Assembly (NCBI RefSeq): GCF_047663525.1 | Contig: NC_092587.1 | Location: forward strand, 44,228,501-44,292,500 | Source: Anas platyrhynchos | Taxonomy: Eukaryota > Chordata > Aves > Anseriformes > Anatidae | Reading direction: 5' to 3' | Length of the DNA stretch: 64,000 nt | In this document: positions 4,800 to 59,040 of the stretch, piece by piece | Layout of the letters: each line of letters starts with the position of its first letter | How positions within the stretch are numbered: position 1 is the first letter of the stretch | Made by a program: the position numbers and the translations under genes | The notes under the pieces: model-generated | The model's database searches: none | What the model saw: the letters and a program-made list of their open reading frames with translations, nothing else | What the model was told of the DNA's origin: nothing

Positions 4800-4929
4800 T
4801 TAGTATCTCCCAAAGAAATGGTTGTAGGCCATGAAAAATCCTATTTGGTCAGACAGATAATCACAAGGAGGGTAGCTTTCACAACGCTCATGCATCTGCT
4901 CCATTGGGGTTTTGTAATGCATAAAGTAC
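4800..4929 (-). CDS. Osteocalcin-type gene, coding exon 4 (Gla domain)
   Basis: The acceptor is TCTGTCCACTCCAG; the exon enters in phase 2 and ends at TAA (4800-4802). It encodes 42 complete residues, including PMEQMHERCE aligned with PLEPRREVCE of human osteocalcin, then SYPPCD and a C-terminal helix rich in Phe and Tyr ending GRY. This exon alone identifies the family. Confidence 0.93.
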
Positions 4930-7900
4930 CTGGAGTGGACAGAGAGAAAGATGCTGTTCTGCATATTCAGTCAATGGAGTTGGAGAGGTTTCATAGCCCC
5001 ATACCAGCAGGAGAAGAGTGATTCCCCAGGGTACTTCTCATTGTGAGTTAGATACCTACTTACATGGGGATAGACCTCCTTGAGAAATGCTGAGGGAAGT
5101 TGGAATTGAACCCATCTTAAAGCAACAGCTCTTGAAGTTTTATCAGGAAATGAGACCATAGAAGCAATTAGTATTTTTTTGTTTGGTTGTTTTTTGGCCC
5201 CAACCTCATTCCTCAGCTATCTGGCAATTTATTTTTTTATTATTATTATTAAAAAAAAAAAAAAAAAAAAAAAAGTTATTATTTATTTTATAATTAATTT
5301 GTTTTATTATTTCTTTTTTACCTTTATTTGTGCCCAGTTTCTGCTCATTTTCCCACTAGATACTCTTTTCCCTTAGTATAAGCAGTTTTCCCTCATCATC
5401 CTCACTTCTATTGTAGACAGCAACCCTTTCCCCTCACAGTTCTTGTCCTGCCATACTGAGCAAGCCCAAATTTTTTAGTCTCAGCTACACAGTAGTTTCT
5501 TGTAGCAGAAGCTACTTTTATGATGACCCACCTGTAAGGGGGCGGTCAGTGTAGTCAGCAGAGTTGCTACTTCTGAATTTCTTTTTTTTTTTTAATCATT
5601 CCAGGTTTCAACATCATTCAGTTCCCCTGCTACCATACACTGATCCTCTTCTCTACAGATGGGACCTCCCACTTTTCTATCATCTAAAAACTACATCATC
5701 TTTCCAGTCCAAGACAGATCAAATAATAATTCTTTTTGACACGGGCCTACATGAGACAGCAGCTTAACAACTTCTAGGAAACATGTGAAGAATATTCTTG
5801 GATGAGCTCAAATTTCTCCAAGTGTTTATATCCAGGATTTCTCCAAATCTTTGTGCCTAGAATTTCTGCACAAATGGATATAGGACCTGCAGCTTCAGAT
5901 TTAGCTTAATCACTACAACAGAGCTGTGCTTCTTTTGTATGGAGGTAGAGGTAGTGACCAGGACTCTGTGATGCTCATTATCCTGGAATTTGGATCTAAT
6001 GTCCCTGTAGGTTTAAGCAGCTTCTAACTTGTACCCTGTTGTCCCCATGGCTAGCCCAGAAAGCTAGTACTGTCCTCCATGGGAAGGAATAACAAAGTCT
6101 AGCTATAAGCTCCCAAAAGGATATTTATGAGAAAGGGGAAAAAAAAAAAAAAAAAAAAAAAAAAAGCCATTTATCTATCACTGTCGGTCTCTTAATACTT
6201 TTTTGTTTCTATACATGATGTGTAGATGTGTGGCAAATGATGAATACTTTGCCATGGCCCCCCACCTTCCCACCCCCTCTTCAGAACAGGTCCAGAGTCC
6301 AGCTCTCAGCCTGACTCATGCATCATTACCGTTCGTAAAAGTCAGATCTCTTCTGCCTCTTCACAAAGGCATTGGCAACTTCCTTTTTAATCTTGATGCC
6401 TACCAAGAGAGAATGCAGCAGGTTAGAGATGCAGGACCATTGACTACAGAAATCAGAGATCAGTCTACACTTTGAAAATGGACTGTTTTATTTCTTCATA
6501 AGGAGGTAACTTCTGCAGCCAGTCCTACCTGCCCTACCCCACTGTCTACTCCAAGATTTGACAAGTGGGCTCACTCTTCACCCCAACCTGCCTGTCTACA
6601 TGGAACAAGGGCTCTTCTGTCTTAAACTTCATTCCCTTATCATGTAGCATAATATCATAGAATCATACAATTATTTAGGTTGGAAAAGATCTCTAAGATC
6701 ACCTAATTCAACCTTTATATGAGTCCATAGCAAATTTACAGAAGTCAAATTCATGACAGAATAAGATATGAATAAGGAGAAAATGAAGGGAATGGCATCC
6801 TGTCTCCCTAGTGCAGCTAACTTCAGTCTTGGCTTGCTTTCTATAACCTGCCTCAGACCGAGTGATGTGGGACAGGAGGCACCAGACCTTGAAATACCTG
6901 TAATTAGCCATAAGCTACAAACAGCACATGGAACTGCTGATGCTCACATGTGCACAGTTCCATGGAAAGTGAAAGGTATGAAATAACAAAAGTAAATGTT
7001 ACACCGGGAGAAATACACCCAGGACATGCACATCCCAGTGTTCGGGCACCTGGAGAACATGAGAGGTCTTTTTGCCATGTCAGCATTCACCCCTGGTCTC
7101 TACTAACACACCTTGTCAGCACAAATTTCTTATTTGCCTCCTTGGATTTGTGGCTGTGCAAACAAAGGAGGGTTGTGGAGCACCCCACAAGCAGGAGCTA
7201 AAGCCACCTCACTGTCCCCAGCCAGGACTGAGCACAGCACAGCCTCTCTCTGTCAGATGGGCCCACAACCGCAGAGGTGTGCGTGAATGCTGGCACACTG
7301 GCAACTCCAGCAGCTGCACACCAGCATGTTTCAGCAGAGAAACTGGGAAACTATCAGTGTCACTGAGGGAGTGCAATTTCTAAGAGACGGTGGATTTTGT
7401 GCCCTTCCAACACTGTGGGATGTTTGTTTCTGCTTAGCTGGTGAGACGTGTCCCCTCACCAGCACGCTGGGTTTACTCAGGATCCAAATATTGACTGCAC
7501 AGAAACTACCAATTAATGACTTGTCAGAAATCACCGCCTTTCCCTGAACACTCTTTTTGTGTGTGCTTTTTTTTTCTCTCTTTCCCAAATGATGTTTTTA
7601 TTGGCTCACTGGAGAAATACCAGCTTTCATGCTCACCAGCAGCAATGTTATCCTTCAAGGTGTAAAAAAGGAGGGACAGAGAAGATCAAGGGGGATTTTC
7701 CATGCAGATTTCTGTCAGGATCAGCTTGCCGTGAAACCTGTGGACATCCCAAGGCATGCAAATCTCCATGTACTAGGCAACCTGACAGAGGAGGGACTAC
7801 AATCCTCAGCTGCAGCCAAATAAGGGACTTGCTTTCAGGTATTAAACCTTTCTTCTCTGTGATCCTACGCACTAGCCTGGCTGAGCAGCAGATCCCCCAA

Positions 7901-10345
7901 AAAACAGTGCTTGGAAACCCTCGGACAGGTTCTGATCTCTTGAGAGGCTGGGGACACAGCAGTCCCTTTGGAGGGGTCCCTGAGGGCAGATCAGAGAAGC
8001 AGGGAGACCAGTCATATTACTCCATCCACATCACCCTGTGTCATGGAGGGGAGGTGCAACCAGCCTCTAACAACCTGCAGGGCTCATGTCTTGCCTCAAG
8101 GGTTGTGGAGATAGAGGCTATGGTTCTAGCACAGCCAGAGTGATATTCCCTTGCCAGTACAGCGAGGCTGACCCCTCTTGTGCCTCCCGCCCCATGGCTG
8201 TGAAAGGCAGCCCCTCCATTTGCTGCACGTGCTCCTGCACCTCAGGGGTGGCGGTACTGAGGGAGCAGAAGGGGAGCAATTAGAGGGAGTCAACATAGTT
8301 CTTGTTCATCCCTTCAACTCATCAAAGGGAAGAAGAGAGGTGGATGCAGGGGAATGGAGCTAAGACTCATTACAACAATATACTCACTGGCAGCGCTGGG
8401 AGGTCCTGAGGGGTCTTCGGGATCTGTAAGACAGACAGACAGGAGAGTTTGCATGTGACATCTGCTCTTCTGGTCCACTCTCTACCTGAATCCCTCTTTC
8501 TATTGAATGGATCCAGCTCCCCCCTTTTCCAGAAGGTCTGTCCTTCCCAGAAAGAGTTTTATCAACATCCAAAATTCAGGGATGTATTTCTCCACCACAA
8601 AATTCACTCATTATGCCTGGATTCATTTAAATTCAACTTCTCTAAACAAGGTCAAATGACACAATAACCATACAACTACTGTGGAAGCTGGAGGAAGACC
8701 TTCTTTTTTCTTCCTCCCTACCCTTGCTAAGAGCAGAGACAGTTGGAGCTCAGGGACCATTTGAGCAAAATCCCAGATTTGGACAGAATCAGAAGATAGC
8801 TGAGCATCTCCTCTCTCTTTTGAAAGAGTGCTTTCCCTGACTCTAGGAAGAAATCACAAGCTGTTAATAGGGAAGAGAAATAGAGGTGAAAATTAAGAAA
8901 AACTCTACCCTCACAGCTTTGCAGCCTAGGGTTGGAGTATCTGGCTCACCAATGACCTCCTTCCCTCTCCCCTAAACAACAATAGATTTACACAATGTAT
9001 TTCTGTTTTCATTTCTAAAGTTAATTTTTAATGCTGTCTGCAAAAACCCAAGCAACACGTCATCTAAGAGAAATGTTAGGTCTCCTCTTCATCTTGGCTT
9101 TCCCACACTGGACTGTTTCACAATTATTTTTTTTCTTCCGGTCTTTAACCATATTTTTCTTCAACAGTGTTTGTTCCATCCAAGTCACCAGCTCCTTGGC
9201 ATAAGCATACTCATGGGCAGAAAGAGGACTGTGGAGACCAAAAAATAACAACTCTGCTTAAACAAAGACTTTGTGAGAAGGGATGTGTGTAGTTCTATTT
9301 TTAAGCAATGTATACATTCCTTGGATTTCAAAAACAAAAATAAAAATTAGAAGTTCCTCCAAAGTTATTAAGCAATCTGGAACATAACAACTGGGAAAAC
9401 CAAAAACAAACAACAAAAAAAAAACATAGAGATACACTCAAGAGCGAGAAAGTGAACAAGAGACCGACAGAGGGAAAACACAGATCAAACAAAATACATG
9501 AAATATATTTGCCAGTATTGAATCATGTATCTGATGCCAGGGACTTAATGAAAATTAACTTTGAATGAGATAATGCAGGCAAAAACAGGGCCCCTTCCTA
9601 CTTGGCTTCTCTTTTCCTGCTGTCAGGAGAAAACACTTGCTGTTCCTGATCTTTTGTCCTTTCCCTCTCTCTTCAAATAAAGAGTTGTCACTGCATTACT
9701 GTCTCTTGATTATAAAATCACCATGGCTAAATCACCTGTGTTTTTATTCAATGAGGTGGCTTCCAGTTTTTCTAACCATCAATACAAGGTTTTTCCCCTC
9801 CAGAGTTCTCCACATCCTACATTTTTCTTCAGGTGACGACTTGACTCAGTGCCTATCTCCACGATCCCACGGCACCCCAGTGCTGGCAGGTACTAAATCC
9901 TCCTCACTGTGATTGACACAACGCTTGCCTGCAGCTCACCCCGGGGCTGGGTTACCCAGTGACTCCAAACTGAGCATCCAGCCTACCTTTGCCAGGTCAC
10001 CTAAAAGCTTCAACATGTTAAAATAGTTGGAATTCTCTGCTGCAACGCAATGGTGCAATCCTAATTTTTTTGACCAGTGGAACAAAGCGCCCAGTAGGAG
10101 ATAAGGCTTCCTAAACCCAAGCCCTGTTTTTAATTTACAGCTGCCCCTCAGAGACCTGAGGTTGTGCAATGACCCGCGGCGCTGCCTCCCCCCAAAACCT
10201 TGAATCTCTCCCAGGGTAGAGGGAGGCTCCCTGGGGGCTGCAGCTCCAGCAGCTTTCCTAAGGAAGGCATCCTCTTACCTTTTTCACAGCAGCACAGCGC
10301 TGCCAGGGCCATAGTCAAGACGAGCAGTGCCAGCAGACTCCTCAT
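4800..10345 (-). CDS. Osteocalcin-type secreted Gla protein, tandem to MGP (4 coding exons, 100 aa)
   Basis: Coding exons are 10279-10345, 8388-8423, 6330-6399 and 4800-4929. Intron phases are 1, 1 and 2, the same as in the MGP gene upstream. Residues 1-18 form a signal peptide (MRSLLALL..., hydrophobic 4-17), followed by Cys18-20. Residues 23-52 look like a propeptide ending in the dibasic furin-type site RQKR (49-52). The mature peptide would be 53-100, 48 residues against 49 in human osteocalcin. It aligns without gaps to the osteocalcin Gla domain: Glu68, Glu72 and Glu75 sit at the three Gla positions, Cys74 and Cys80 form the disulfide pair, Asp81 follows, and CDYLSDQIGF matches CDELADHIGF of human osteocalcin. 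By family, vitamin-K-dependent carboxylation makes Gla that binds calcium and bone mineral outside the cell. It differs from MGP in having a cleavable propeptide and no basic C-terminal tail. It could be an OC3-like paralogue, but I cannot place it without a tree. Open in all four exons, with a TATA box upstream. Confidence 0.9.
5251..5274 (+). repeat. A24 homopolymer
   Basis: It follows a TTA repeat, in intron 3 of the osteocalcin-type gene, about 320 bases before exon 4 on the sense strand, where it reads as poly-T. Confidence 0.95.
6139..6165 (+). repeat. A27 homopolymer
   Basis: It lies in intron 3 of the osteocalcin-type gene, about 165 bases past the exon 3 donor. Confidence 0.95.
6330..6399 (-). 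CDS. Osteocalcin-type gene, coding exon 3 (propeptide and cleavage site)
   Basis: The acceptor is TTCTCTCTTGGTAG and the donor is CG then GTAATG, which is modest. The exon enters in phase 1 and leaves in phase 2, as MGP exon 3 does. It encodes the carboxylase-recognition stretch, then AFVKRQKR, which resembles the propeptide end of chicken osteocalcin (RRQKR), then SDFYE, the start of the mature peptide. Confidence 0.88.
6652..6715 (-). mobile_element. Old CR1 LINE 3' tail fragment
   Basis: The minus strand reads as a diverged CR1 3' end: AGGTTGAATTAGGTGATCTT, then TTCCAACCT and a GATTCTATGAT tail. It lies in intron 2 of the osteocalcin-type gene. It is more diverged than the other two copies, hence older. 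Confidence 0.75.
8388..8423 (-). CDS. Osteocalcin-type gene, coding exon 2 (36 bp micro-exon)
   Basis: The acceptor is a good pyrimidine tract ending TCTTACAG and the donor is GTGAGTA. The exon is phase 1 on both sides and encodes DPEDPSGPPSAA plus the first base of a Ser codon. A short proline- and serine-containing exon 2 also exists in osteocalcin and MGP genes; MGP exon 2 in this window is also 36 bp. This is the least certain of the four exons because so short a peptide gives little homology. Confidence 0.75.
10279..10345 (-). CDS. Osteocalcin-type gene, coding exon 1 (signal peptide)
   Basis: It starts at the ATG (CAT on the plus strand) and encodes 22 codons plus one base (phase 1). 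The donor is strong (AAAAAG then GTAAGAGG). Like MGP exon 1, it holds the signal peptide and little else, and both proteins begin Met-Arg-(Ser/Thr)-Leu. A TATA box lies about 90 bases upstream of the ATG. Confidence 0.88.
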
Positions 10346-10430: not shown

Positions 10431-10439
10431 CTTTATATT
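10431..10439 (-). promoter_or_regulatory. TATA box of the osteocalcin-type gene
   Basis: The minus strand reads AATATAAAG, about 90 bases upstream of the start codon. Transcription would begin near 10405, giving a 5' UTR of about 60 bases. I saw no clear RUNX site (ACCACA) in the next 150 bases upstream. Confidence 0.7.
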
Positions 10440-14754: not shown

Positions 14755-17700
14755 TTACTTAGTCCTCCTCCTCCCATAATAATGCCTGTAAGCAGCAGCA
14801 TAGCCATGGCGAGAAGCGTACAGTTCGCAGGGGTAGTAGTCTTCGCAGATCTCCCTCTGACGCTCCTGGGGTGCCTTATTACGTTCCCTGATCCTGCAGA
14901 AGTAGGATAGATGAGGGGTAAGTGTTGTTATCTTAAATACCTGTCTACAGCCCTTTTTCCCCCCCACAACACCCCACCAGGATTAAGAGCCCATCCCCAG
15001 CCCCCATCACCAAGCTACCAAGACCATGGCATACCAGCATCTGTATTCACCACACCCAAGGGACTGATGTGAGCACAGCAGGAGTGTTTTGCCTCCCCAG
15101 GTAACATTTTACTTCAGGGCTAAGTAGGGTGGTTCAGCTCCTGCCTCAGCCTAGTGCAGACGGAGGAGGCTTCCAGCCTTCTCCCTTCAGCTATTTCACT
15201 ATTCCCTAAACCCACGCATGAAGCAGAGAGCCGAAACATCCTGCAAAGGGGACAACATGGTGCTGCTGAGAGGGTTTGCCTCAGTTCCTCTTTAGGAGAG
15301 GATTTCTGTGCCTCAGCTTTTATTGTCACAAGCCCCACATGAGACATAAAACTGCCTGTATCTGCCTTTTATAGATGAGGAAAGGAGGCCCACAGAAGGC
15401 CTTGTGATTTAGAAAAGGTCATGCAAATCCTGCATGAGACCTGAAGACTGGAACAAGATCTCACATTGAACTTTCTGGGTATCCCACACTGACTCTCTCT
15501 CCTTTTGTTGCTGCTTCCTTCAGACAAATTAAACAGAGCCCTCCCAGTACAGGACATGTCCTCAAACACAAGGACCCACTCTGCTGCCTGAGCTTTGGCT
15601 TCTCCCAGGGCTGGGGACTTGACAGGCACCTCAAGCTGAGGGAGGGGCTGAGGCTTCTCAGAAGTCACCATGGCTTCTTCCCCTGCTACCAGCCTGTGCT
15701 TGACAAGGAGAAACCTCTCCCCACTCCCACCCTCAGTACCCCGAGGTCACAACATACCTCTCCTGAGCAATAGCTTCTAGTCTCATGTCAGTTTGCATGA
15801 AGCCGTTGGCCCTTCGCCTGTTGATGAAGGGATCTGAGAAGACAAGGTTCTGTTTTGTTTTGTTTGCAGAGTATATAAACACTTTTCACGAGACCTGATT
15901 TCCAGAAAGCCCATCTCCCACACTGGTGACAGCTTCTCTCTCTGCCCTCCCCTCACAGTGAAACCCAGGACTCCTTAATACTCCCCACCATGCACCCTGC
16001 TGGCTCTCCCTATGGCTTGTGCAGCCTGTATGGAAGCTCAGGGTGCCCAAGGGAAAGCTACTGTGAGCCTGGTGCTGCAGCCCCCCTGACTGGAGCTTGG
16101 CCAAGGGTTGGGTGCCAAGCTGTGCAGACCACAGGAGGGCTGGGTGTACTCAGTAAAATCAGCAGGACTGTGTAGCTACAAGTGGGAACAGGAAGGGCCT
16201 GAACAGGTTTATCTGCCTCCATGGTTAGGCAGTAGAAAAGGTCTGTGTGGAAACTTTGAACTGAAGCGTCTGAAGGTCCCTTCTGTCCTTTTTGAGAAGC
16301 AGCACAGTCCGACTGCAGAACTGAGGAGTCTGGGGATGTCTTTGTCACTGGCTCCCACTTGTGCCTTTGTGCTTCTGACTCACTGCTCTGTGAAGTCCTT
16401 CTCCCAGATGGTCTCATTTCTTTTTAGCTTTGATCCATCTGTTCTCTAACCTCTCCAGGCTATTGCTCGTTCCTAAATGATGCTCTCCACCTTCTCCCAC
16501 TGCTTCTGTGACACTAACTCTCATCCAGAACAAAGATGCCTCCTGCCCACACACCCACCTGCTTCTTCCAAGGTGCTGAGAGTTCAGTTCTCCCTGTCTT
16601 TGAGTAAGGACAGCCAGTGTCACTGTCTCTTTCCACTCTCCTCCCAGAGCTCTTTGAATAATGCCCTCTTCTAGTACCTTTTCTAGTACCTGCTTTAGGT
16701 GCATGCAGCAGAGATCCAAGTTCATTGCTCTTTGCTTTCCAATTCTTATTACATTCTTTGCAAAGCACAGTGGTATGTACTTGTGCCCAAACACGTGAAG
16801 TCTTTTTTATCTCTCTTCCTATTCATCCTGAACTCTGACATCCAATAAATTCAATTTCTTTGAGCTGAGTAGTTCTGCCTATTTAATCCCCATAGTAAAG
16901 CACAAGGAAATAGTCTTGGAGATGTCTGCAGCACACTTTGAATTAAAAAAAAGTAAATCAGTCTCTTACTGAGATACTCATGGGATTCCATGCTCTCGTG
17001 GGACTCTGGGGAAAGAAAGAGCAAAAAGGAGTAAGACACTGTATTCATAGGATTCGCAGAGTCTCACACACGACAGATCAGTAGAACATGCACACACAAA
17101 TCAGAGAAAACAGATTATAAGGCACCTGTTTAAGAGGAAAAGAAAGGGTTCAGTAGTGTCATGTAGTATTTATATGAGGAGTTTACAATGTTCATGTGTT
17201 CAGGATGCAGCTATCTGGTGTCCTAGCCAGGACTTCAAGGGTCCCACTTGGTCTTCCAGTATGTGATTCTCAAGCATATTTCTTTCCTTCACATTCTTGA
17301 CACTACAGTGTTGCTTAACCTCAAAGCCTACATGTGTGCCTAGGAAATGGATTAGCACAGGGAAGTGTGCTTGACTCTTGCATAAAATAGCATCTTAACT
17401 TCATCCGTATGCCTGACAGGAGGAAGGTGCTCATATTACAAAAGGGGAAAGGGAGATCTACCATTAACAATGAAGAAGTCTTGACTTGGTGTGCAATAGG
17501 GTAGCAATTATGCCTTGCAAAATAGCCTGTGGGACTGTCACAGCCCGAGCACCTCCTATGCACCCCTGTATGGCTCAGCCTTTAGAGTTGTTCTGGTGAT
17601 CAGCTGTGTCCCCCAGCCATCCTGCAAGGTAACTATAAGTTGGAATGACCATTTCAAAAATGATGTAATCTCTTCCAAGTCCTGTTATTGTGATACAGAC

Positions 17701-17993
17701 AACAGAGGAGTAGTCTGCAGTGTGAGCTGGAGCAGAGTGGAAGGGGCTGAAGCATCCTGGACTGCAAAACACAGTGACTGGAGCTGGCTGCTCTGGAGCA
17801 GGGCTGACACAAGGGCAGGAAAGCAGAGTTAAAGGGAAAGAAAAAACAAAGGTGAATAAAAAATTCCAAACAGATCCAGAGATGTCTGCAACTTTGGAGC
17901 TGTTGGTCTACCCCATAAAAATGATCACCTACCATAGCAAGTAGCGGCCATGATCAAGGTAGCCAGGAGTGTCAGGATGATGAGAGTGCGCAT
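14755..17993 (-). CDS. MGP: Matrix Gla protein (4 coding exons, 103 aa)
   Basis: Coding exons are 17933-17993, 16970-17005, 15758-15833 and 14755-14893, with phases 1, 1 and 2. The 103-aa product equals the human length. Residues 1-19 are the signal peptide ([12 protein letters not shown]...). Exon 2 gives [12 protein letters not shown] with three Ser-X-Glu sites, the phosphorylation sites of the family. Exon 3 gives [10 protein letters not shown], and exon 4 [18 protein letters not shown], then YYPCELYA and a basic tail ending RRRTK. Cys pairs and glutamates of the Gla domain are kept. Known role: secreted, vitamin-K-dependent inhibitor of soft-tissue calcification in cartilage and vessel wall; unlike osteocalcin, its propeptide-like recognition region is not cut off. 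The C-terminal part ([13 protein letters not shown]) differs noticeably from mammalian MGP but keeps the helix pattern. Confidence 0.97.
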
Positions 17994-34896: not shown

Positions 34897-37800
34897 TCAG
34901 AGTTCCTCATTGAGGGCCTTCTTCTCTTGTTCCTCTTCTTTCTAAAACATATCAAAGGCATGAAATAAGTTTTGACATGGTTCAGTTTCTCAGTATAGTG
35001 ATAAAAGGAAACAATCCAGTGTAAGTGCTTCCCTCTGTTCTCCATGCCTTTACCCTGCCTATCCCATTTCAGTTGCATAACAGAGGGTCCTGATGCACAA
35101 AGCCTATGTGTTATAAGAAGGTGACATTTGACAAAGAGAGAACACTAACACTGAATGTTCACGGAGATTTAATTGTTCCTCTCCCAGCCCTGACCTCCAG
35201 TAGAGTCCTGAGCACATCTGTATACTCTGCTCTGTGGCCTTCTTGATAAATTTACTTCCTATCCCTGCCACTGTCTCCCTGATCCCCTCCTAACTGCTGA
35301 CAGCCACCATGACCATTCTCATTGCCCTAATGCACCCTTCACCCTACTGCCCTAGCTGCTGCTCCCAGAAAACAGATGCTTCCACTGAGTTGAAGTTCCT
35401 CATACAGTTGCAGAGGTCAGACAAGTCTTTTTGCTGTAGACTAAGAAGGCAGATCTCAATGAATAAAGAGGCTCTGCAAACACATCCATATCTGCTCTGC
35501 TCTAGATCTAATGCAAGTGAAAATGAAATAGAGGTGGCAGGGCTGGTGACAAAGTCAAGAAACTGAAGTCATCTCCTGAAGAGCCTTGTGAGCAACACCA
35601 TCTTTATACAAGATCCCAGCTTCCTGTAGACTGTACAGGAGTGATCCCTTACCTTTTGTATTCTTTGTAAGAAAGTATTACAGAAGTCCTGCACACGCTC
35701 AACAGAGAATTCATCCAGAGGCAACACATCGTGCTCCTCATCTGGTGTGTAGAATATAGCCAGAGCTGGCAGCTGGGACTTCTTCAGTTTGAAGTATGCC
35801 ATCACTTGTTCATTGCTTTTCAGATTAATGTCTACCAGGATAAAGAGAATCTGTGATGTAAATAAGAGATAAAATGTGAGCAAAACAGAGACCGAGAGAG
35901 AAAAGAGATCGCCAAACAACAATCATACAAAGATTAATAGTGATATTTCTAAAACGAGTTAGTGAAAACCTACCATACTCTGTTGGAATAACACTTTCCT
36001 CTGCCACTAACTGCTCCTTGCGGTGAATTTTTCCGTATTTTATCTAGTCCATATGTACACTATCAAACAAAATGTCTTGTTTTCTATTCTTTAAAAATAC
36101 ATTCATAGTATGGCAGGAAGGCAGTCTCCTGTTCTCTTAATAGATGAAGAAAAAAGATGTCTTTAATCTCAAAGGCACACGTAGAAAAAGCTGATGCCTC
36201 TTTTTGCATGTTTTCAGGATAATATGCTCACATCCTGAACTGATGCCTCTTTTTGCATGTTTTCAGGATAATATGCTCACATTTTGGACTGGCGCACGCT
36301 TCGTTGGGTGAGAAACTGGCTGGATAGCCGGGCCCAAAGAGTTGTGGTAAATGGAGCCAAGTCCAGTTGGAGGCCAGTCACTAGTGGCGTCCCCCAGGGC
36401 TCGGTGCTGGGGCCGGTCCTCTTTAACATCTTCATCAATGATCTGGATGACGGCATTGAGTGCACCCTCAGTAAGTTTGCAGATGACACCAAGTTAGGTG
36501 CGTGTGTCGATCTGCTCGAGGGTAGGAAGGCTCTGCAGGAGGATCTGGATAGGCTGCACCGATGGGCTGAGGTCAACTGTATGAAGTTCAACAAGGCCAA
36601 GTGCCGGGTCCTGCACCTGGGGCGCAATAACCCCAAGCAGAGCTACAGGCTGGGAGAGAAATGGTTGGAGAGCTGCCAGGCAGAGAAGGACCTGGGAGTG
36701 ATGGTGGACAGTCGGCTGAATATGAGCCAGCAGTGTGCTCAGGTGGCCAAGAAGGCCAACGGTATCCTGGCTTGTATCAGAAACACTGTGACCAGCAGGG
36801 CTAGGGAGGTGATCGTCCCCCTGTACTCGGCTCTGGTGAGGCCGCACCTCGAGTACTGTGTTCAGTTTTGGGCCCCTCGCTACAAGAAGGACATCGAGGT
36901 GCTTGAGCGGGTCCAAAGAAGGGCGACGAAGCTGGTGAGGGGCCTGGAGAGCAAGTCCTATGAGGAGCGGCTGAAGGAGCTGGGCTTGTTCAGCCTAGAG
37001 AAGAGGAGGCTCAGGGGTGACCTTATCGCTCTGTATAAGTACATTAAAGGAGGCTGTAGAGAGGTGGGGGTTGGCCTGTTCTCCCATGTGCCTGGTGACA
37101 GGACGAGGGGGAATGGGCTAAAGTTATGCCAGGGGAGTTTTAGGTTAGATGTTAGGAAGAATTTCTTTACTGAAAGGGTTGTGAGGCATTGGAACAGGCT
37201 GCCCAGGGGGGTGGTGGAGTCACCATCCCTGGAAGTCTTCAAAAGACGTTTAGATGTAGAGCTTAGGGATATGGTTTAGTGGGGACTGTTAGTGTTAGGT
37301 TAGAGGTTGGACTCGATGATCTTGAGGTCTCTTCCAACCTAGAAATTCTGTGATTCTGTGATTCTGTGATCCATGCAAGACCCAGAGTGGCATGGTTAAA
37401 AGGTATTTTGGTAAGTGGAAAATCAAACTCAATGGCCAGAATGTGGGAGTGAAGTACAGGGCAGCATAAGCCAGCAAGGATAAGAATACCAAACACAAAG
37501 GGTGTATTTATGTCAGCTGCAGTGACTAGAAATGAAGGTGCAATCATTTGGGAAACAGGAGTTGTTGGCACGACACCACTGCACGTAGAGCCAATCTCAG
37601 TGGAGACTTGTCAGACCTGGGGAGAGAAGCCCCTCAATGAGTAAGCCAGGGTGAGAACAGCCTATATTTTTCTGGGCTCCCAAAAAGTCTTGGAGAGCAA
37701 GACCAAGACAAGGATTAGGATACTGCCAGGCCAATTCAATAGTACTGACTTATCACAATTGGTGACCTACCCCATGATTTATTTAAGAGTAAATTTCAGC

Positions 37801-43900: not shown

Positions 43901-46900
43901 CGAGAGAACTGTGCATCACACCTACAGCTGTCTGCCAGAAGCATGGCCACCACAGACAGAGAGAGAAAAACACACAGACAAGGAGATTGAGAGCATTTAA
44001 TGCGCATTGGATGCACTGCCAAAGGGACATCAATACTCATGCCTCAGCTTAGGCTTCTTTGTAAATCAGCCCAACAAGCAGGACAACCTCCTTTACAGCA
44101 GAATGGATCCAATCTGGGTTTTTGTGGAAACACTTAACCTCTTGGTTTTGCTTATTCCAAAGCCAAGAGTTTGAAGACCACAAGTGTTCCTCACTGGCCT
44201 CAGGCCCGTCAGTGACTAGGCAGGGGGACTGCCTGGATGCAGCAAGCTGTCATCTAGAGGGACAAAAAGGAATTGGAAAGGTAAGGCCACCAAATGTGGT
44301 GCCCTGAATTTCTGGGGCCCAGCACCTGACTGAAATGGGAACAAGCAGGCTGGAATAATTTGGGATGCTAGGGTTGGTGTGTCCCCTTGCTCCCTTTGTG
44401 CAACACATTGTGCTGTGCATCAAACAAGGATGAGTCCAAAGCGTCTTTTCAGCAACTCCAGGGGCTGGGCAGCCTGCAGTGCTCTGGGTTAGAATAGGCT
44501 CTGCAGCCCTGCAGAGGGAAGGACCTGCATCTGGCGGTGCCCTGGGCAGGCACAGTGCACAATGGCCCTCTGTGAGCAGGCAGGGCTGGCACTGCCCAGG
44601 AAACCTTTGCACCATCTCCAGGCACTCAGTCGCTCTTCATCCCCCTTTCCCTGCAGCCCCTCCCTCAAACCAAACAGAATGGGGCCAGGCTGCTGCTGAC
44701 CTGCTGCCTCACCCATGCCACAGAAACCACGCTGGTGCAGGCAGTAGAGATCCCCGCCAGCACTTCCCCAGAGGAGGAGAAAGTTTCCACATACTCCAGG
44801 AGTAACAAGGATGGGGTCAGGGAGTGCATGTCTGCAAGGGCTGTGCACCACAAGGCATTCAGTTTCTCATGACCAGGACTTTCCCTTAGCCTGATGCTCA
44901 TCTGATGTTTTGTATCACTTCATTTCTCTGTGCTGTGCAGATGGGGCAGGGGAGAGTAGAGGGGAAGCAAACCAGGGTTAAAGAGCGTTAGAAGACCTCA
45001 TGGAAGAGGACAGGGCTGAAAGTGAGGGTGAAGCCATGCAGCACCAAGAGCCACAAGGACAACAGGGGCACAGCTCGAGCAGCAGCTCCTCTGGCAACTC
45101 CTCACAGAGGTGTGTCTGTCCACAAAACCTTTTGCAAGAGATTTGCATAGCTCATCATCATGAATGGATCACATTGCACTCTCCTGGGAAGTACACATGG
45201 TAAGCACTGCCTAAAAATGACTGAAGTACGTGGGTGAAACAGTGAGGGCCCCAGGACAGGGAATGAAACTCTTGGCAGTACTCAGTTTGATCCCTGTGAT
45301 CCAAGCCCTTGCTGACCTGCAGCATACTTGGATGTAAACAGCATATGCACTGGGAATAAATATTTATGGGGAAAAAAAAAAAAAAAAAAGGCTATGCTAG
45401 CAGACCTGGAAGGGCTTCAAGCCTTGGACGGCAGGAGGCACTGTTAATTGTAGCACCTTGCTAGGGATCCACAGTGTCAGGGGAAAAAATGAAACAGGAT
45501 GTGTGTTGCAAGCCAGGCTGGAGGGAATGGCTGAACAGCCTGGGGGTTCTGGGTCAGAGAAACAGTCTGGGTGCTAAATGGGACACCAAGGAGCAAGAAC
45601 CCCAGGTATCATCAGAAACACATGGAGAAAGACACAAGATCGGATGAATTGCAAAAAAAAAAAAACACAGTGGAGGCTACAAGCCTGGCCGTTTATGAGG
45701 ATAACAAGAACATCCCCACTGTTGTTACTTGGGTCATCTCAAAGACCTGTAAGGACAGTGGGGCAGAGTACAGCTTTTTTGTCCTAGGAAATGTTCCGTC
45801 ATTTTGAAATGCTTTTCATATCCCTTAGGTAGATGAAGTAAACAAAAAACAAATTTGCTTTTTTTTTTTTTTTTCTTTCTTTCTTTTTCTTTCAAAGAAA
45901 GTAGAACAGAACTTCTGCAGTAAGTTTTCTCTGGAAAGAAAATGTTGTATTTCCAAAACAAAATGCTCTCTCTCCTGGCAGGCTGAACCTGAACTGGGAT
46001 ATGTGCCAGCCCTCTTAGCTGATGTTTGGCATCCATTTGAAAAAGTACAGCTTTGAAACAGGTCAGGCCATTCTCCTTTGATTAAACTGAGCATGGTCAG
46101 CATTGCTGTAGCTATTCAGAAGTCTGCAAAAGACCCTGTCAGCAATGACAATTTCAGCCTTGCAGCCAGCTGGGTTTCACAGCAACCAGCCCAGTGAATT
46201 GCTAGCGCTTCAGGGGAGCCTAAATCCTTAGCCACCCTCTCTACAGGAAAGGAGCACCGGGAGCTTTTGATTGTCTGTCAGGTGGGTAAGTTAATAAAGA
46301 TGGCCAGCAAGGAAGCATCCTATGTCCAATTTTTCTTTGTTGAACTGACAAATTATGGGGTGAGGGATGCTGGGGATGGGAAAAAATTTTGCTTGGGAAG
46401 TTTCCAACCAGCTTTTGAATATGCTTTCAAATAGCCAGGTTTACGTTGGGCCCTGGTTGTTGGGTGACAAAGGAAAGCCTGCCTCCTAGAAGCAGGTCAT
46501 TTGGGTTCCCATGTTTCTTGAGGCTTCCCAGCCACACAGATGGGCAGGGTCTGCAGGCGCAGTACGACATGGCAAATGCCCAAGGGAGGAAGCAGCGGGA
46601 GTGGTAAGAAATGCAGCTCTTTGTCCACCAATGCCCCAGATTTACTGGAAGGCCAGAGGAACTGCCTCCTTTCCCCTCCCCACCCCACCTGAATGCCCCG
46701 GTGCTGCACCTGTTCCCGCTCACTCTATGCAGCAGCAGCAAAGAGTTGTGTGTCTTCCCCATCCCCATCTACACCACTGTGCAACCCTTGCATACATCCA
46801 CGTGCATAAACACTTGGGCCAGAGGAGGCCCATGAGGAGGAGACTGAGTGCTGGGGTGAAGGCTGTGAGGAGCTGGTAATTACCACAGGGTTGTACTCCG

Positions 46901-49900: not shown

Positions 49901-52900
49901 CCATGCTCCAGACTAGCTGCTCAGAAACAGAGCCATCATTCTTTGCAAAGCACTGAGCGCAAGGTTAAAATGGAGCATCCGATCAGGGGTAAAAACACTG
50001 CTCGTGTCAGGGATGCAAAAAGTAAAAGACCTCTTCAGAGCAGCAAGCTCTACAAGCTTTTACGTGCTTGGGCAGGCTGACTCAATGCTAAGCCCTCTTT
50101 GGCTTCCCAGCTCTAGGCAAAGCTGAGCAGCTTTAAGCCCTTTCTTTATCACTACCGACCAGCGATTACATTTCCTCTGTAACATGGTTGGGGGCAATTT
50201 TTAGGTGCTTGTTGTAAAACCTTGCTCACTAAAATTAGTCAGCAGGGTAATTTAACAAAAAAAAAAAAAAAAAAAATAATATAAAAAGGTAAAATAAAAT
50301 AAAACGGAGTGAGGTAAAATAGAATAAAATAAAATAGAATAAGGTAAAATAAAATAAAATAGAATAAGGTAAAATAAAATAAAATAGAATAAGGTAAAAT
50401 AAAATAAAATGGAGTAAGGTAAAATAGAATAAAATAAAATAAAATAAAATAAAATAAAATAAAATAAAATAAAATAAAATAAAATAAAATAAAATAAAAT
50501 AAAATAAAATAAAATAAAATAAAATAAAATAAAATAAAATAAAATAATAATAAAATAAAGCAAAACAAAAGTAGTGCGGAGGAGATGTGCTGCGGCACCC
50601 TGCGGAACAGCGTGACGGTGCTCGCCGAGACGCCGAAGTGCTCCAGGACGGCGGGGCTGCTGCTGATGCCGAAGGGCACCTCGGGGATCCGGCCGGCCAC
50701 CAGGCGCAACTGGGCCGCCGCGTCCCCCTGCGGCTCCTGCGGGGCACAGAGAGAGGAGGGCGGTGAGCGCAGAGCAGCGCAGCGCAGAGCAGAGCGGCCC
50801 GGCCCGGCCCGGCCCCGCCGCAGCCGGCGCAAGGCCGACCCCTACCGGCCGCCCGCGGGGCCCCCGCTCCGCCATTTCGCGGCCCGGCCCTTGCCCGGCC
50901 CGTGCCCTCCTCCCGCCCCGCCCTGCTGCGGTGCTGGGGAGCCCGGGGGCTCTTGGAGGGGTGATGTGGGGTGGGGTGGTCGTAGAGCCCAGAGGCAGCG
51001 CACTTGTGCGTGTGTGTGTGCTATACAAGTGGTAAAAATACTTCATTTTTAAGATAACCTCTTGATTCTGCACTCAGTGGGGTTACGCTGTTTAAACACC
51101 CCTGGTTAACAGTATCCTAGTTCCTTTTAAAATGGTATCCTAGTCCCTGTCTTAAACCTGCTCTTTAAATGTAGCAAATACAGCTGCATCAAAGCATAGA
51201 GCTGTGCAATTCTTCAGAAAGCTGGGGTCTGCTCCCTTCAGCTGAGAGCATTCACTGCAGCCTTAGACTGTGTTAAAGCATCCCTTACTACTTCCATTCC
51301 TGGCTTTTCTTGTGAGGGATGCATTTTTGATACTCCTTCTTACTGGATTTAAATCCTCAAGACACAGCCTGTGCTTGGAAATTGTTGTTTTTCTTTTCGA
51401 TTTGAACCATCAGCTCAGCTGTTTGCGAGCCCAGAGAGAATGGAAAACAAAATTCTTTCTTCGTTCGAAGAAAAACAGCTCTTGTGACCTGTTTTGGAAA
51501 TGCGAGCTCATCGACATGGCTGCGGTGAGAGCATGGTGTGGGAATAACCTCACTTTGTTTTCGATCATTCCTGTGAAAAATGGGGTTTAACCCAGCCAAG
51601 CAGGCCACTTTCTCACACGGGCACAGGGGGTTGCTGGAGCAGCATGCTGGTTTTCTATCATGGCGTGCAGCTCCCAGTCAGGGAGAACCACACTCATTAC
51701 ATGCGGAGCTCGCCGAGCTGCATGCTGCAGTGAAATGAAAGGCTGCAGCAGGGAAGTGATTTATGGTGAAGAGAGAACATGGGCATTATTTGGATGAATA
51801 TACTCTTGGGCGGAGGGCCAAGACAAGCCCTCATGGCACTCATACATCCTTATCTGCTGTTTAAAGGCAGCCCTGTCGTGCTCCACACATTGAGCGCACG
51901 CCAAGCTGCTGGCTGCTGGCAGCCGGTGCTGTCCCCACGCTGCGGGACAGCACAGTCGTCCCTCCCTGCCCTGGCACCCCCTGTGCTGCCTGGGACCAGC
52001 ATCTTGTTAACATCAGTGAATGAAATCGTGCAGCGGGAGGGATGCGGTGGCGTGGGACACTGGTGGCATAAGGCTTTGCCTGCAGGAGATCCAAGTGCAG
52101 AGCCCTGCTATAACCCCAGCCAGCTACCCAGGGGCAAGGAGACATCTGAGCAACTTTCCTTCGACCTGTGCAGATTGCCTCACTGGCTTGCAGGAGCTCG
52201 GAGGAGCTCTGAATGCCTGCAGGCTCCCAACCCGAGGCAGGTGGTGCTCTGTGATCAGTGTTTAGCAAGGCCCCGGGGTATTAGCCTCCAGCACTCACAC
52301 ACTTGTTGCAGCAGAAGCATCGGTCCTTGCTCTGCAGTGTGCCACAAGATGCTGTTGCCATACATCTATCTCACGACCACCTCCCTGGGCAGCCCTCCAG
52401 CCCCAGAACCAGGGCCCAAACCCTCTTAGAAATCAGAAGACCCATATCAGCACTGCTCCCTGAGACGCAGCTTCCTCAGCCCCACCATGCAGGCAGTGCC
52501 TTGCTCTGCCCTCAGTGACTAGAGCCAACAGCTGATGTTCCCACTCACCCCGTGCCAGTGCACTCGCTTTCTTTGCCACCCACGTCGCCCTCTTCCTTCC
52601 CCTGCAGCATTTCCCTTTCTCCCGCTCCAGGGCTCCCACCAACATCTTCACAATCCTCCCTTGCTCCATCTCCCTTTCCACGCACCCCTCCCCTAATCCC
52701 CCCACACTTCTGTCACAGCCCCAGCACCTTTCTGTGGAAGGAGCTGCTGTCTGAAGGTGTTTACACCACAGCCAGCCCTGCTCTCCCACCAGGGCAGGAT
52801 CTGGCTCCCACCTGGCAGAGGGGACCCGCTGCCAACACACCTGGAAGAACCCAACGACCGCCACCTCCTCCCTGCTGATGAAGGCCTCCACGTCTGCAAT

Positions 52901-53219
52901 GTCGTTCAAGGAGACGAGCTTCTCTGCATCTCCCTCTGCACCTGGAGAGGACAGGTCAGGGTTGGGCAGAGGGTGCATGAAGAGCAGCTCGGAGGCACCC
53001 CCACATGCACACGCAGACATCCCACCCCTCATGTGCTGCCCCCACACCTCTCCCACCAGGATACAGGATACGAAGCTTGCATAGCACACCCTCAGTGAGG
53101 TGGGCTCCCCACACCAGGCCCAGGAGAGCGGACTTACTGTGGGATGCAGAGCCACTGTCTGCAGCACAGCCCCCAGCAAGGAGGATGATGAAGAGACATG
53201 GGAAGACGGAGGTGCCCAT
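34897..53219 (-). CDS. ERP27: Endoplasmic reticulum protein 27, non-catalytic PDI family (7 coding exons, 267 aa)
   Basis: Coding exons are 53138-53219, 52841-52941, 50599-50736, 46884-46997, 43806-43931, 35653-35850 and 34897-34941. Phases are 1 and then 0 throughout, and 267 aa compares with 273 in human. The ATG at 53219 gives a signal peptide ([17 protein letters not shown]). Two thioredoxin-like domains without CXXC follow, as in the b and b' domains of PDI: about 40-145 ([26 protein letters not shown]) and about 146-253 ([35 protein letters not shown]). Exon 7 encodes an acidic-basic tail and the C-terminus NEEL; human ends KVEL. Known role: ER-lumen binding partner of ERp57 (PDIA3) that recognises unfolded substrates. 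The acidic DEEHD segment lies where the human ERp57-binding site is. Further ATG codons exist upstream of 53219, but they would push the hydrophobic segment inward. Confidence 0.95.
36191..36282 (+). repeat. Perfect 43-bp direct repeat at the CR1 5' junction
   Basis: Copies at 36191-36233 and 36240-36282 are identical, beginning CTGATGCCTC and ending GCTCACAT, separated by six bases (period 49). The second copy abuts the first CR1 base. I do not see a third copy at the CR1 3' end, so it is not an ordinary target-site duplication. Confidence 0.93.
36283..37370 (+). mobile_element. CR1 LINE, 5'-truncated, frame open to its stop
   Basis: The element lies in ERP27 intron 6, in the opposite orientation to the gene. 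It encodes the C-terminal part of the CR1 reverse transcriptase ORF2: [10 protein letters not shown] near 36391, FADD (catalytic Asp pair) near 36478, then the CR1-specific C-terminal region to the stop at 37277-37279. About 331 codons are open with no interruption. A typical CR1 3' UTR follows, ending in three ATTCTGTG octamers (37345-37368). Full-length CR1 is about 4.5 kb, so most of the 5' part is missing, as is usual for this family. The open frame and near-identity to the copy at 3141 suggest a fairly young insertion. Confidence 0.95.
37927..37959 (+). repeat. A33 homopolymer
   Basis: The longest pure A run, about 560 bases past the CR1 3' end in ERP27 intron 6. It is not the CR1 tail, which ends in octamers. 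Confidence 0.95.
42390..42416 (+). repeat. A27 homopolymer
   Basis: Located in ERP27 intron 5-6 territory, upstream (sense) of the CR1. No processed pseudogene body is recognisable beside it. Confidence 0.95.
43932..50598 (-). other. ERP27: ERP27 introns 3, 4 and 5 territory flanking exon 4
   Basis: Apart from exon 4 (46884-46997), the 43932-46883 and 46998-50598 introns show only short A and T runs (45371-45389, 45858-45874), an ATAA run near 49526-49541, and the pentamer array against the exon 3 donor. Confidence 0.6.
50257..50570 (+). repeat. (AAAAT)n array with a 25-bp higher-order unit
   Basis: An A run is followed by about 290 bases of AAAAT pentamers. Near 50341-50415 the pentamers are organised in three tandem 25-bp units (AAGGT, AAAATAAAAT, AAAATAGAAT); the rest is nearly pure. 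On the ERP27 sense strand this is (UUUUA)n starting about 28 bases inside intron 3. Confidence 0.95.
50599..50736 (-). CDS. ERP27: ERP27 coding exon 3, GC-rich, with a weak splice donor
   Basis: The exon encodes 46 codons, from EPQGDAAAQ to TVTLFRR. Homology to human (GVSFGIST and NTICLFRL) and the phase of exon 4 (ADNDRKDL against human VDNEQLNL) both require the donor at AGG then GTGCCG. That matches consensus only at GT. The base composition is far more GC-rich than the flanking intron 3, which opens into an AT-rich pentamer repeat within about 30 bases. Confidence 0.85.
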
Positions 53220-53276
53220 GGTGCCAGCTCGCCCTCTCCTCGCCATGCCACTTCCACTCCTCTCCTTGGCAAGCGA

Positions 53277-53283
53277 CACGTCA
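53277..53283 (-). promoter_or_regulatory. ERP27: UPR-element-like motif TGACGTG upstream of ERP27
   Basis: The minus strand reads CAGCTGACGTGTCG, about 60 bases upstream of the ERP27 start codon. TGACGTG is the core bound by XBP1 and ATF6 in unfolded-protein-response promoters, and also by CREB-family factors. Whether it lies in the promoter or the 5' UTR depends on the unknown transcription start. Confidence 0.4.
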
Positions 53284-54031
53284 GCTGCTTCTGGGGCTCA
53301 CAGTCCCTCCCAGGGAGGTGGGAAAGGAGCAGCTGGCCAGGGGCAAAGCCTTCAGCTCCTGAGATAATGTGTTGGCTGGGAGAGAGCCCTGGGCCTCCTG
53401 GCTGCACAGGCATCAGCCCCGGAGAAGCTCACCAGTGCTGCCACCAGTGTGCCCTCACCCACAGCGGTGGACATCTCAGCTCCTGCACCCACACAACCAG
53501 GCTCCCTAGGCTGTGAGAACACCCCTCCACATAGAGGGAGCCACTGCACCTCCCCAGGTGCTGGGTCTCACAGAGGCTGATGTCCCCTTGTGCTTGGCCA
53601 GCCAGTGGGACACAGCTCCTGCACTTCCTCTGGCTGGTGGAAGCTACAGCTGCCAGGTAAATGTTAAACATGAGAAAGCCATGGGCTACCTTCTTGGGCT
53701 CATTCAGCTGCCACTCTGGATGGCAGGTGGAGGCTTTTTTAGCCCTGAAGCCCACCCTGATTGTGGGCTTCAAAACAGGGTTCATGAACACCCTGAAGGA
53801 AGCCACTCTGAAATAATTTGCCTTTAAGGGGAAAAATATCTCTTGGCTTCCTATTCATTAGAGTTGGGTCGACGTTCTGAAGCAGAAGGGCTTTTTCCCT
53901 TATGAAACACACTGTTAAGCCTTCCTATAACACAGTCCCCACACACACCTCACTGCAAAACTCTGATGCAACAGTACCCACACTCTAGAAAAGAATGAAG
54001 CACTCATGCAGAGAAGAAGAAAGAAACCATT

Positions 54032-54631: not shown

Positions 54632-59040
<4,409 letters not shown>

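Follow-up and report, generated by a model that had tools for sequence, protein, structure and literature searches.

Locus and gene model

The window analyzed here, a stretch of 64,000 nucleotides from the duck Anas platyrhynchos, contains a four-exon locus on the minus strand (positions 4800–10345) that is a real and intact gene for a small osteocalcin-like, vitamin K-dependent matrix protein. Exons of MGP (matrix Gla protein), of an ERP27-like gene, and of ARHGDIB succeed one another beyond it on the same strand. The features are as follows:

4800–4929 (130 nt), minus strand: coding exon 4 of the osteocalcin-like gene, with the Gla domain (E-x3-E-x-C-E-x4-C-D), QIGF, AY, and the stop codon
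6330–6399 (70 nt), minus strand: coding exon 3, with ANAF (the ANxF docking motif) and the RQKR cleavage site
8388–8423 (36 nt), minus strand: coding exon 2, part of the propeptide
10279–10345 (67 nt), minus strand: coding exon 1, signal peptide (MRSLLALLVLTMALAALCCCEK)
10432–10437, minus strand: TATAAA box, exact match starting at 10437, 92 nt upstream of the ATG; candidate promoter element
14755–17993, minus strand: MGP, four coding exons, 103 amino acids (PDB 9nub, E 2.5e-23)
17993–17933, 17005–16970, 15833–15758, and 14893–14755, minus strand: the MGP coding exons, with phases 1, 1, 2 and an exon 2 of 36 nt
50242–53428, minus strand: ERP27-like exons, in pieces only, with coordinates that span two open segments; PDB ERP27 2l4c, E 2.1e-11, with a query in which these segments were joined by hand and eight stray letters stood at the end
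54635–54961, minus strand: open segment containing the C-terminal exon of ARHGDIB (Rho GDI 2; PDB Rho GDP-dissociation inhibitor 2, E 9.8e-41)

When joined, the four exons of the osteocalcin-like gene form a single open frame of 100 amino acids plus a stop codon, with stops in both other frames, and the three introns are all GT-AG with cumulative phases of 1, 1, 2. The precursor is ordered as signal peptide, propeptide, RQKR site (residues 49–52), and a Gla peptide of 48 residues, which carries Glu68, Glu72, Cys74, Glu75, Cys80, and Asp81, and also Asp85. The start, stop, splice sites, exons, and Gla-domain residues are all intact. The initial annotation had proposed four in-frame minus-strand exons with these phases, the RQKR site followed by 48 residues, the complete osteocalcin pattern at the first six of these residues, a TATA box, and a tandem arrangement with MGP. 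All of these are found in the window, MGP lying 4.4 kb upstream in the same orientation with equal phases. Junctions 2 and 3 (8388/6399 and 6330/4929) rest on the splice-site sequence and the exon pattern of the family.

Two other elements were observed in the window. Near the ERP27-like coding sequence, at positions 50258–50570, the pentanucleotide AAAAT is repeated about 62 times. On the plus strand, an open segment of 335 codons (36272–37276) matches the reverse transcriptase family RVT_1 of Pfam (E 3.7e-16), and we presume that it belongs to a CR1-type LINE.

Similarity to osteocalcin and MGP

The place in the osteocalcin family assigned by the initial annotation held up in a phmmer search of PDB, in which osteocalcin chains were the top matches of the 100-residue protein (E 2.2e-12, residues 4–98) and MGP was far weaker (E 0.018), as was fish osteocalcin 1vzm (E 0.058). 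The 64-residue part without the signal peptide gave E 2e-8 for osteocalcin and 0.011 for MGP, which is the fairer comparison because the PDB chain of MGP has no signal peptide. With the MGP of the window as query the order was reversed (9nub, E 2.5e-23; osteocalcin, E 0.002). In pairwise alignment, 37 of 98 aligned positions were identical to the osteocalcin chain 9mqb, with a local score of 135 against a maximum of 55 in 500 shuffles. By E-value and identity the protein is nearer to osteocalcin than to MGP, with the exception of fish osteocalcin 1vzm.

The likeness to osteocalcin (Bgp1, BGLAP; PDB 9mqb, 13ib, 9bur, 1q3m, and 1q8h) extends over the signal peptide, the basic cleavage site, the three Gla positions, the two cysteines with the following Asp, and the IGF and AY residues. 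The duck gene differs from osteocalcin in its position at the MGP locus, in having ANAF at −10 to −7 instead of the GSEV of 13ib, and in having Lys rather than Phe at −16. With MGP, both that of the window and 9nub, it shares four coding exons, the phases 1, 1, 2, a 36-nt exon 2, ANxF, and the Gla core, whereas MGP lacks an R-x-[KR]-R site, carries an N-terminal stretch of 10 residues of its own, and differs in the C-terminal half of its Gla domain.

Translation of the window in all six frames gave two instances of the full Gla core, E-x3-E-x-C-E-x4-C-[DE], one in the osteocalcin-like gene and one in MGP, and none was present in 200 pair-block shuffles. The short form (E-x3-E-x-C-E) has three sites, compared to 0.115 per shuffle, and the stray one at 46846 on the plus strand is without such context. 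Up to its second Cys the core is common to osteocalcin and MGP, and it has no power to separate the two. A tblastn search of the window with both proteins identified no third Gla exon (best other match, E 0.27). Pfam returned only chance matches and no Gla match for the protein; the MGP of the window also had no Gla match there, and hence the missing match says nothing about the osteocalcin-like gene. A single-sequence AlphaFold model had a mean pLDDT of 49.8 and was unusable.

The strand, the phases, and the length of exon 2, all equal to those of MGP, could also be expected of a second, lineage-specific MGP copy that had drifted towards an osteocalcin-like sequence. ANxF is present in both proteins, and 31 of 101 aligned positions are identical between them (score 119; maximum of 47 in 500 shuffles). 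Nevertheless, we consider such an origin highly improbable, as the osteocalcin chain 9mqb is nearer and the MGP chain 9nub (19 of 62 positions identical, score 71) is hardly above its best shuffle (64, n = 500). The furin-type site, missing from the MGP of the window, is present here. Moreover, in a tree of 107 sequences, the Bgp genes of bony fishes form two clades and Bgp2 from other species is placed inside the Bgp clade, the node of Bgp1 and Bgp2 being poorly robust by SH-aLRT according to its authors (Leurs et al., 2021, PMC8006282).

Probable identity as Bgp2/OC3

We consider the gene to be the duck ortholog of Bgp2, also named OC3 (“osteocalcin 3”), an osteocalcin paralog in tandem with MGP, with a probability of about 0.95. 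Bgp2/OC3 was reportedly also treated by Cancela and colleagues in 2014, as cited by Leurs et al. In the description of Leurs et al. (2021, PMC8006282), Bgp2 is kept beside MGP in amphibians and sauropsids, with MGP, ERP27, and DDX47 as markers of the locus, and its loss is inferred in mammals and in actinopterygians. The duck gene shares with the tetrapod Bgp2 genes described there both the place beside MGP and the osteocalcin-type Gla domain. The adjacent MGP, with ERP27-like and ARHGDIB exons beyond, agrees with Bgp2 as described, and two of the markers, MGP and ERP27-like, are present in the window, the comparison covering these two. The suggestion of the initial annotation that the family has an additional, unknown member here does not stand, as the gene fits the Bgp2/OC3 already described (PMC8006282) and an accession for chicken OC3 (NM_001201386.1) is in print.

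For chicken OC3 (NM_001201386.1), RT-PCR primers with a product of 120 bp have been published (PMC9150503), and their sites in the duck lie before the start of exon 1 and across its 3′ end. The reverse primer matches the spliced duck model at 18 of 21 bases across the exon 1/exon 2 junction (coding nucleotides 62–82, with the junction after 67), while its best match to the unspliced window is 16/21, and of 5000 shuffled primers none equalled it on the model. For the forward primer, 14 of 20 bases agree in the 5′ UTR, which is weak evidence by itself, because 48 of 5000 shuffled primers were as good and 14/20 was also reached elsewhere in the window. The product predicted on the duck model is 120 nt, equal to the published size. 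These matches to the first exon junction, part of the 5′ UTR, and the product size support the predicted exon 1/exon 2 junction and the proposed orthology with chicken OC3, a support that consists of 41 bases from another species and reaches the first junction only.

Two of the three differences from chicken at the reverse primer change an amino acid, although 21 bases are too few to judge selection. Such changes might be seen in a recently dead or dying copy that is intact by chance and neither expressed nor selected in duck. That the exons, splice sites, start, stop, and Gla-domain residues are all preserved, and that the chicken ortholog is transcribed in published data (see below), speak against it, and we regard it as very unlikely. 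Least probable of all is a classical osteocalcin gene (Bgp1/BGLAP) that never left its ancestral position near MGP. Such an arrangement exists in ray-finned fishes, but Bgp1 is inferred to have been translocated before or early in tetrapods, every tetrapod Bgp2 found by Leurs et al. sits in the MGP locus (PMC8006282), and the chicken OC3 primers match at the duck locus.

Expression in chicken and proposed role

The Bgp2/OC3 gene is transcribed in chicken, according to the data of others from that species. Leurs et al. (PMC8006282) came across no account of where Bgp2 is expressed, and the chicken OC3 RNA literature used here comprises seven papers (PMC12208832, PMC11802539, PMC10867563, PMC9150503, PMC9260106, PMC9689937, and PMC4979145), represented by passages in which OC3 is a list entry or a qPCR check from bulk samples that may include adjoining tissue. 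In the trachea, which contains hyaline cartilage, OC3 belongs to the top 20 genes and falls together with EPYC, ACAN, CHAD, and C1QTNF8 from the same lists, CHAD and ACAN each appearing in just one of the two comparisons; MGP is absent from the main text of that paper. In the preoptic hypothalamus, OC3 rises with MGP, CHAD, and C1QTNF8, in a set of 18 genes that reach no more than FDR < 0.1, and the signal may come from adjoining tissue in the sample. In the liver, OC3, given by symbol only, is differentially expressed and listed with MGP near two SNPs on GGA1. OC3 RNA has also been reported by qPCR in liver, by RT-PCR in spleen, and in granulosa cells, and in breast muscle OC3 is only one of the nodes of a predicted network of circRNAs, miRNAs, and genes. 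Among the seven datasets, CHAD and C1QTNF8 accompany OC3 in at least two and MGP is named in two. These co-changes suggest a cartilage or connective-tissue source of OC3.

Judged from the precursor and its family, Bgp2/OC3 likely acts in the matrix as a secreted and carboxylated peptide that binds mineral. The signal peptide would direct the precursor to the secretory pathway, where gamma-glutamyl carboxylase would dock on the propeptide, in which ANAF closely precedes the cleavage site, and modify Glu68, Glu72, and Glu75 (Glu16, Glu20, and Glu23 of the mature peptide). A furin-like protease would then cleave after RQKR, a disulphide would form between Cys74 and Cys80, and the 48-residue peptide would bind calcium and mineral through its Gla and Asp side chains. 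By analogy with the family, we think it probable that the whole chain of steps operates.

Some details of the propeptide bear on docking. ANAF stands at −10 to −7, right beside the furin-type RQKR site, and ANxF is named as a docking motif for Mgp (PMC8006282). A furin-type R-x-[KR]-R site before the mature Gla peptide is present in the duck Bgp2 and absent from the MGP of the window. Residue −16 is Lys in the duck propeptide and Phe in the osteocalcin chain 13ib. Phe at −16 is important in docking of the carboxylase, and if it has the same weight here, the Lys would count against tight docking.

The peptide could act mainly in cartilage and connective-tissue matrix and tune the deposition of mineral there much as MGP and osteocalcin do, a suggestion by analogy that we hold tentatively and at somewhat less than even odds. 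More doubtful is a fuller version of this proposal, in which Bgp2 would be a Gla protein of cartilage and connective tissue unlike bone-type osteocalcin, with its control partly shared with MGP and an ANxF propeptide recruiting the carboxylase in the manner of MGP, and would have been lost in mammals. We consider this version unlikely, and slightly more so as the main text of the trachea paper makes no mention of MGP.

As a gene, Bgp2/OC3 is already known, and the value of the present result lies in annotation. Bgp2 is mostly missing from gene sets according to Leurs et al. (PMC8006282), yet it is intact here. Since OC3 in chicken changes alongside CHAD and C1QTNF8 in two datasets, alongside ACAN and EPYC in one, and alongside MGP in another, matrix, both in cartilage and in connective tissue, is a concrete place in which to look for its product.
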